Assembly: GCA_025363275.1 (NCBI GenBank)
Contig: JANYEE010000190.1
Coordinates: 1-53,001 of the forward strand
Direction of reading: 5' to 3'
DNA length: 53,001 bases
Source of the DNA: Burkholderiales bacterium
Lineage (GTDB): Bacteria; Pseudomonadota; Gammaproteobacteria; Burkholderiales; Burkholderiaceae_C
Of the stretch, positions 13,430 to 14,824 are shown one piece after another; within the stretch, counting starts at the first letter, position 1, and every line of letters begins with the position of its first letter. The notes beneath the pieces were generated by a model. That model had not been told where the DNA came from. It did not search any database and saw only the letters and a program-made list of their open reading frames with translations. A program made the position numbers and the translations under genes.

Positions 13430-14824
13430 TTATAAGCCCTGAAACACATCGACTGCTGACTGCGCAATGGACTCGCCCTGCTCCTGCACAAAGTGCCCTG
13501 CGTCCAGCAATTGCAGGGGTTCCGGGCAATTGCGAATGACTTTGCGCAGGGCCTGCATAGTGTCCCAGCCCAGCACCGGGTCCGGCATGCCGACAGCCAT
13601 CATAGACCGCCCGTGCCAATCGTATTGCCAGAAGTGACGGGCCTGTTGCGACAAAGCCGCCCCGTCCGCTTGGGGGTGGTCTGGCACCATGGGCGGGAAC
13701 ACGCGGGTGGCGGCGCGGTGTCCTTTATCCGGGAATGGCGCCATGTACGCTGCACACTCCTGCTGCGATAGCTGCGGGTTGCCACGCGCCATCAGTCGGG
13801 CGATATCAAAGTCCGGGTTCTTGGCGCACATCTCGCGCCACGCCAGAAAGCCCGGCGACAAAGGCACATCACCTGTGGCCAGTGCGGTATTCATCACCAC
13901 CAGCCCGGCAAAGCGCTGCGGCACGGCCATAGGCAATGTCAGGCCCAACAGGCCACCCCAGTCTTGCACCACCAACACGACGCGCTGCAAATCAAGCCGC
14001 TCAATAAGCTGCAGCAGCACATCTCGGTGCCAACTAAAACTGTGGGCCGACTCGCGCTTGGGCTTGTCGCTCTTGCCGAAGCCAATCAGGTCTGGGGCAA
14101 CCACACGGCAGCCGGCTTGCGCGAACACTGGAATCATCTTGCGGTACACATAACTCCAAGCAGGATTGCCGTGCAGACACAAGTAGGTGAGCGAGGCCTC
14201 TTGCGGGCCAACGTCCAGGTAATGCATGCGCAGACCCTGCAAGGCAGGCAGGTCACTCACATAGTGGGGCGGCCAGCGATAGCCCGGGAGCTCGGCAAAA
14301 CAGGCGTCGGGCGTACGTAAAGCGTCATCCCGCAGCGGGTGTGCGGCTTTTCTTTCCAATGCCTGGGTGTCCCGCTTTTGCTGAAAGAAATGCCGCAACA
14401 CGTCGGCGCATTCCTGCGCCAACACGCCGCCGACCAAGCGTGTCTGGTGATTGAGCTGCGAGTTTTCAAACAGATTGACGACCGAGCCCGCAGCGCCGGT
14501 CCGCGGCTCGATGGCACCGTACACCACCCGGTCCAGCCGGGCATGCAAAACAGCGCCGCTGCACATCGCGCAGGGCTCCAGCGTGACGAAGAGCTCACAA
14601 CCGTCCAGCCGGTAGTTGCCCAGCACCCGCGCGGCTTGGCGCAGCGCTGCAATCTCGGCATGGGCGGTGGGGTCATGTGCCGCCACGGGCGCGTTACGCC
14701 CTACCGCAATCACATGGCCGTCCTTCACCACGACTGCGCCGACGGGCACCTCACCCGCGCGGGCCGCCAACCGTGCCTGTTCCAACGCCAGCCGCATGAA
14801 GTACAGATCTGATTCGCTATTCAT
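13430..14824 (-). CDS. tadA: Fusion of tRNA adenosine(34) deaminase TadA and DhlA-like haloalkane dehalogenase
   Basis: One 464-aa frame carries two enzymes. Residues 1-150 are TadA, which makes inosine-34 in tRNA-Arg(ACG): zinc ligands H55 (with E57 in HAE), C85 and C88 (PCAMC) are intact. Residues 168-464 are an alpha/beta hydrolase of the haloalkane dehalogenase I type. It has the LRTPD opening, oxyanion segment HGNPAW (218-223), nucleophile D288 in VVQDWGG, acid D415 and H444 in DAGHFVQE. Trp residues 289 and 329 match the two halide-binding Trp of DhlA as I recall that sequence. No Met or Val codon lies between the last TadA helix and LRTPD, so separate translation of the hydrolase is unlikely. 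TadA alone is normally 150-180 aa. Confidence 0.93.

Follow-up and report, generated by a model that had tools for sequence, protein, structure and literature searches.

The window examined here is a stretch of 53,001 nucleotides from a Burkholderiales bacterium (NCBI GenBank assembly GCA_025363275.1, contig JANYEE010000190.1, positions 1 to 53,001). On its minus strand, at 13430-14824, lies a gene in which TadA, an essential type of tRNA-editing enzyme, is joined in frame to a haloalkane dehalogenase of the DhlA type. The gene probably encodes one bifunctional TadA-dehalogenase chain, and many of its sister lineages probably keep the dehalogenase fold without the chemistry. The joining of these two known enzymes is real, conserved and apparently undescribed; no description of it was found in the literature searched, which comprised titles, the starts of abstracts and some passages, with subscription journals mostly outside.

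The N-terminal domain would serve as the TadA of the cell, where it is expected to change A34 of tRNA-Arg(ACG) to inosine. The C-terminal domain would act as a subfamily I-type haloalkane dehalogenase in which attack by D288 is expected to displace the halide, H444 and D415 to activate water, and W289 and W329 to hold the halide. The most likely origin of the fusion is an ancestor of the Comamonadaceae in which tadA extended in frame into the dehalogenase gene behind it; the former start region of that gene would still be visible in relatives. The dehalogenase would have been kept as an enzyme in the window lineage. Many sister lineages would have lost the chemistry with the fold still attached, and there the tail has probably acquired another role for TadA, a non-catalytic one.

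The fused gene

The gene is a stop-free frame of 464 codons with an ATG start and a stop codon at 13430-13432 (minus strand, as are all features of the gene). The tRNA adenosine deaminase domain of TadA comprises residues 1-151 (14372-14824), a linker comprises residues 152-166 (14327-14371), and the haloalkane dehalogenase domain (DhlA/DppA type) comprises residues 167-464 (13433-14326). NCBIfam PRK10860.1 matches residues 4-160 with 189.5 bits (cut-off 150) and PRK00870.1 matches residues 167-462 with 318.5 bits (cut-off 265), and the Pfam families MafB19-deam and Abhydrolase_1 concur with the two-domain assignment. This is the only TadA match of the source genome with the curated model. The zinc and catalytic residues of TadA (H55, E57, C85, and C88) are kept in 79 of 79 aligned rows and supply both HAE and PCxxC, the zinc and catalytic motifs of TadA.

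The dehalogenase domain has an alpha/beta-hydrolase fold with a helical cap, and its nearest solved chains are the haloalkane dehalogenases DppA (2xt0) and DhlA (1b6g). When aligned to 1b6g, from which the DhlA residue numbers were counted off, D288 (13961-13963) occupies the position of the nucleophile D124, W289 (13958-13960) and W329 (13838-13840) those of the first and second halide-binding tryptophans W125 and W175, D415 (13580-13582) that of the catalytic acid D260, and H444 (13493-13495) that of the catalytic base H289. The pentad Asp, Trp, Trp, Asp, His defines subfamily I (DhlA type), and the window protein fits this definition. Both domains look functional as far as sequence can tell. 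The preliminary description of this gene had claimed an uninterrupted 464-codon frame joining an intact TadA to an intact hydrolase, and the frame, the curated family scores, and the residues, every one of which is present as listed there, all agree with it.

That description had also named a frameshift or stop near the junction as an outcome that would overturn it. A sequencing error at this point is very unlikely, since the same stop-free, in-frame junction recurs across many separate assemblies, including that of an 89% identical neighbour (L003). The source genome assembly consists of 269 contigs, which might favor an assembly artefact. However, the junction is also present in isolate genomes and in one-contig, finished-looking assemblies (G048 and G087), and there is virtually no chance left for an explanation that the relatives have already refuted. 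In one record (L245, Ramlibacter montanisoli), the fused frame is broken within the hydrolase at about 3636, and the remainder runs on in another frame.

Distribution of the fusion

The preliminary description proposed a database search to see how widely the fusion is conserved, and it proves to be a widespread architecture and no peculiarity of the source genome. In a census of the family with one genome per genus, TadA was matched in 129 of 140 genomes (none at the limit used in 11), and 128 of the 129 were classed, with G142 left out. The full pentad is present in 32 of the 128 TadA frames, three or four of its residues in 1, and none to two in 42 (here called inactivated), so that a dehalogenase-derived tail follows TadA in 75 of 128; a further 52 frames have a short tail and 1 has another long tail. 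Full-pentad tails extend 304-324 amino acids beyond TadA, and the inactivated ones 114-330, with 39 of the 42 shorter than 304. The other long tail (L359) has a weak alpha/beta-hydrolase match. Among the short tails, 34 of 52 contain a conserved C-terminal peptide, IP[TAVS]G[DE] (for example, L317, L319, and L341), often followed by a stretch of the 'ATEL' or 'AIHLD' type.

Within the genus, 99 of 100 sampled genomes match the whole protein to some extent, a count that includes matches to a free dehalogenase only. The TadA frames classed from this sample (n = 79, the window included) comprise 41 with the full pentad, 4 with three or four residues, 33 with none to two, and 1 truncated at a contig end; several fusion matches interrupted in this way (e.g., G025, G037, G043, G061, and G075) are left out. 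Two of the frames come from one genome (G019), the assembly of which holds two different full-pentad fusion loci (L034 and L038), reflecting either a duplication or a mixed assembly. Elsewhere in the order, the full-pentad fusion was found in three of four sampled genomes of family f3 (L194, L195, and L197, not L196). No locus of the 30 examined outside f1 and f3 has it.

A set of named organisms, which consists of the best 80 loci among the matches listed and is not a census, shares some genomes with the other samples. A TadA frame is present in 77 of the 80 (26 with the full pentad, 3 with three or four residues, 17 with none to two, and 31 short or broken). Records of Acidovorax, Limnohabitans, Polaromonas, Ramlibacter, Ottowia, Comamonas, and Rhodoferax carry the full pentad; records of Variovorax, Malikia, Tepidimonas, Lampropedia, and Extensimonas and one of Limnohabitans carry an inactivated tail; and the dehalogenase tail is absent from those of Massilia, Polynucleobacter, Lautropia, Rhizobacter, and Aquabacterium. 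In Rhodoferax sp. KJN.1 (L225), only the nucleophile of a full-length tail is changed (Gly for Asp) and the other four residues are kept. In a plasmid collection, 75 records match, none covering 80% of the query, and the 12 matches listed are free dehalogenases.

Loss of chemistry in the tail

The inactivated tails (42 of the 75 in the census) stay in frame and are under (weaker) purifying selection, and selection on the window tail equals that on TadA in strength. One inactivated tail that was modelled is predicted to retain the dehalogenase fold. Since the chemistry has been lost in many sister lineages while the fold stayed attached, the selection suggests that an inactivated tail probably has a second, non-catalytic use for TadA, such as stability, dimer formation, or tRNA handling. 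The earlier suggestion that the dehalogenase was recruited for stable expression or for another substrate leaves these in-frame tails without catalytic residues unexplained.

Full and inactivated tails interleave in a tree of TadA, which implies 29 changes between the classes, although well-supported branches force only two or three and the tree of TadA alone is poorly resolved. An outside marker is offered by GuaA, which is encoded beside tadA at these loci. The GuaA tree comprises 52 rows (29 of the 81 GuaA-matching loci, too short or belonging to neither class, were left out), and the clade test omitted one duplicate of the window. The resulting 51 rows show 8 changes and reject a single inactivated clade, the log-likelihood of which is lower by 231 (p 1.8e-7). 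Taken together, the TadA and GuaA trees indicate that tails were inactivated repeatedly or that an already inactivated tadA moved between lineages, with the first explanation somewhat preferred.

Candidate linker starts and probable origin of the fusion

The linker of the window protein contains neither ATG nor GTG, as the preliminary description had noted, but it does contain an in-frame TTG at codon 156 (14357-14359), its sole codon of the three kinds. The absence of these two codons is a local feature, since an ATG or GTG is present in 43 of 77 intact-pentad frames in which the end of the linker was located. The 95 full-pentad loci have 44 linker ATGs, of which 18 are backed by a Shine-Dalgarno match of at least five bases located 4-16 bases upstream, compared with 13 of 1106 other internal ATGs. 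With synonymous codons shuffled (n = 1000), there were 6.6 such linker sites on average and 12 at most. After thinning to less than 80% TadA identity (61 loci), 13 of 24 linker ATGs are so backed, compared with 7 of 717 others and with a shuffled mean of 5.0 and maximum of 10. The shuffles preserve amino acids and not kinship, so the strength of this signal is overstated to some degree, and two of the 18 loci (L172 and L204), which lie on contigs of equal length, probably represent one genome. At the inactivated loci (n = 78), 0 of 10 linker ATGs and 10 of 373 other internal ATGs are backed in this way. Some relatives may therefore also make a free dehalogenase from the linker start, judging from these sequences. 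A conserved start at the leucine of 'LRTPD' was considered and dropped because the preceding Glu is not biased toward GAG (9 GAG and 27 GAA in the matching intact frames, compared with 528 GAG and 282 GAA in these frames as a whole).

When compared with four free dehalogenases from fusion-bearing genomes, the fused dehalogenases group together (support 100), consistent with a single fusion. In family f3, the linker reads GAGAGGAGGGCAACATG or similar, with an ATG exactly at the position that aligns with DhlA residue 1. This ATG looks like the former start of a once separate dehalogenase gene that is now internal to the frame. A candidate for adjacent but separate tadA and dehalogenase genes (L276) was rejected, as no dehalogenase follows its tadA, and none of the loci L143-L202 showed a separate dehalogenase frame.

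Weighing the explanations

Several observations count against a bifunctional window protein or against the history proposed for it. Two patterns detected no tRNA-Arg(ACG), and among the 30 tRNA matches listed ARAGORN showed none with the anticodon ACG. In the 1b6g alignment, the window protein has Asn220 at the position of DhlA Glu56, and this Asn is invariant in 12 aligned fusions. A free dehalogenase at locus L235 (3001-3870), 62% identical to the fused domain, adjoins the fused L207 in the tree (support 88); this placement could reflect release from a fusion or a second fusion, and the free enzyme may have been copied out of a fusion or be related to the source of the fusion. A single origin is thus likely but unproven. 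(By eye, a LysR-like frame lies near the L235 dehalogenase.) Values of omega of up to 0.44 in the inactivated tails are also compatible with slow decay. A single inactivated clade is not rejected by the TadA tree (p 0.138), nor after half of the hydrolase was added to TadA (p 0.621), when the inactivated rows are drawn together and the changes fall to 6; such clustering is expected of fast-evolving rows but fits true kinship as well. The case for repeated inactivation rests on the GuaA tree.

It is possible, though not the likelier course of events, that some lineages make the fusion together with a free dehalogenase from the linker start, and that others lost both that start and the catalytic residues, the fold having become, several times independently, a non-catalytic part of the tRNA-editing enzyme. 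It is rather unlikely that the C-terminal domain works as a hydrolase on some natural substrate other than a haloalkane. The Asn in place of DhlA Glu56 would suit such a hydrolase, as would the neighbouring genes examined (guaB, an MFS transporter gene, guaA, and genes for a nitroreductase, a GNAT protein, and a peptidyl-prolyl isomerase), none of which hints at haloalkane use, but the domain has the nucleophile Asp, both halide-binding Trp residues, the acid, and the His, and closely matches solved dehalogenases.

Slightly less probable still is that the dehalogenase fold is mainly accessory to TadA (in stability, dimerisation, or tRNA contact) in the window lineage too, with dehalogenation a leftover. 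The many inactivated tails that persist under purifying selection, and the predicted retention of the fold in one of them, argue for such a role. On the other hand, all five residues are kept in the window and in 31 other genera, the window tail is constrained as strongly as TadA, and the 52 TadA frames of the same family with a short tail indicate that the domain is dispensable to TadA there. There is little to recommend a second product in the window organism, where internal initiation or proteolysis would yield a free dehalogenase beside TadA or the fusion. The Shine-Dalgarno-backed linker ATGs, whose number none of the 1000 shuffles reached in the full or the thinned set, and the TTG of the window linker favor this reading. 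However, neither this TTG nor any other position in the window is among the listed sites with at least five Shine-Dalgarno bases, and the linker is predicted to extend the last TadA helix (helix 136-161 in the model), contrary to an exposed cleavage site. Since the linker offers only a TTG, the sequence favors a single fused product, in keeping with the preferred reading of one bifunctional chain.

Relation to known systems

The window protein shares the whole domain and the zinc and catalytic residues with TadA of Escherichia coli (1z3a) and Staphylococcus aureus (2b3j), but those chains consist of 159-168 amino acids without a partner domain, whereas here TadA is followed by an enzyme of about 300 amino acids. 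Likewise, DppA and DhlA share the fold and all five catalytic residues with the window domain but are free enzymes, whereas the window domain is a tail of TadA. Other enzymes are joined in frame to the same end of TadA in other families of the order, namely a tyrosine phosphatase in family f5 (L199 and L200; Y_phosphatase3, 199.5 and 205.1 bits) and a GNAT acetyltransferase in family f33 (L201 and L202); these partner domains are unrelated to the dehalogenase.

The TadA fusions are a source of many dehalogenase sequences lost to multi-domain filters. In passages on its dehalogenase use case, EnzymeMiner 2.0 is described as excluding sequences that carry additional Pfam domains (PMC13355053). 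Active tails occur next to inactivated ones among close relatives, which makes the family a natural series in which to follow how an enzyme domain turns non-catalytic within an essential protein, and it is also suited to asking whether the tail influences tRNA editing.

Between guaA and the fusion gene lies a small frame of 82 amino acids (window 14869-15117, minus strand) without a Pfam match. The order on the same strand upstream of the fusion gene is guaB, the MFS transporter gene, guaA, and this small frame, and the nitroreductase gene lies downstream.
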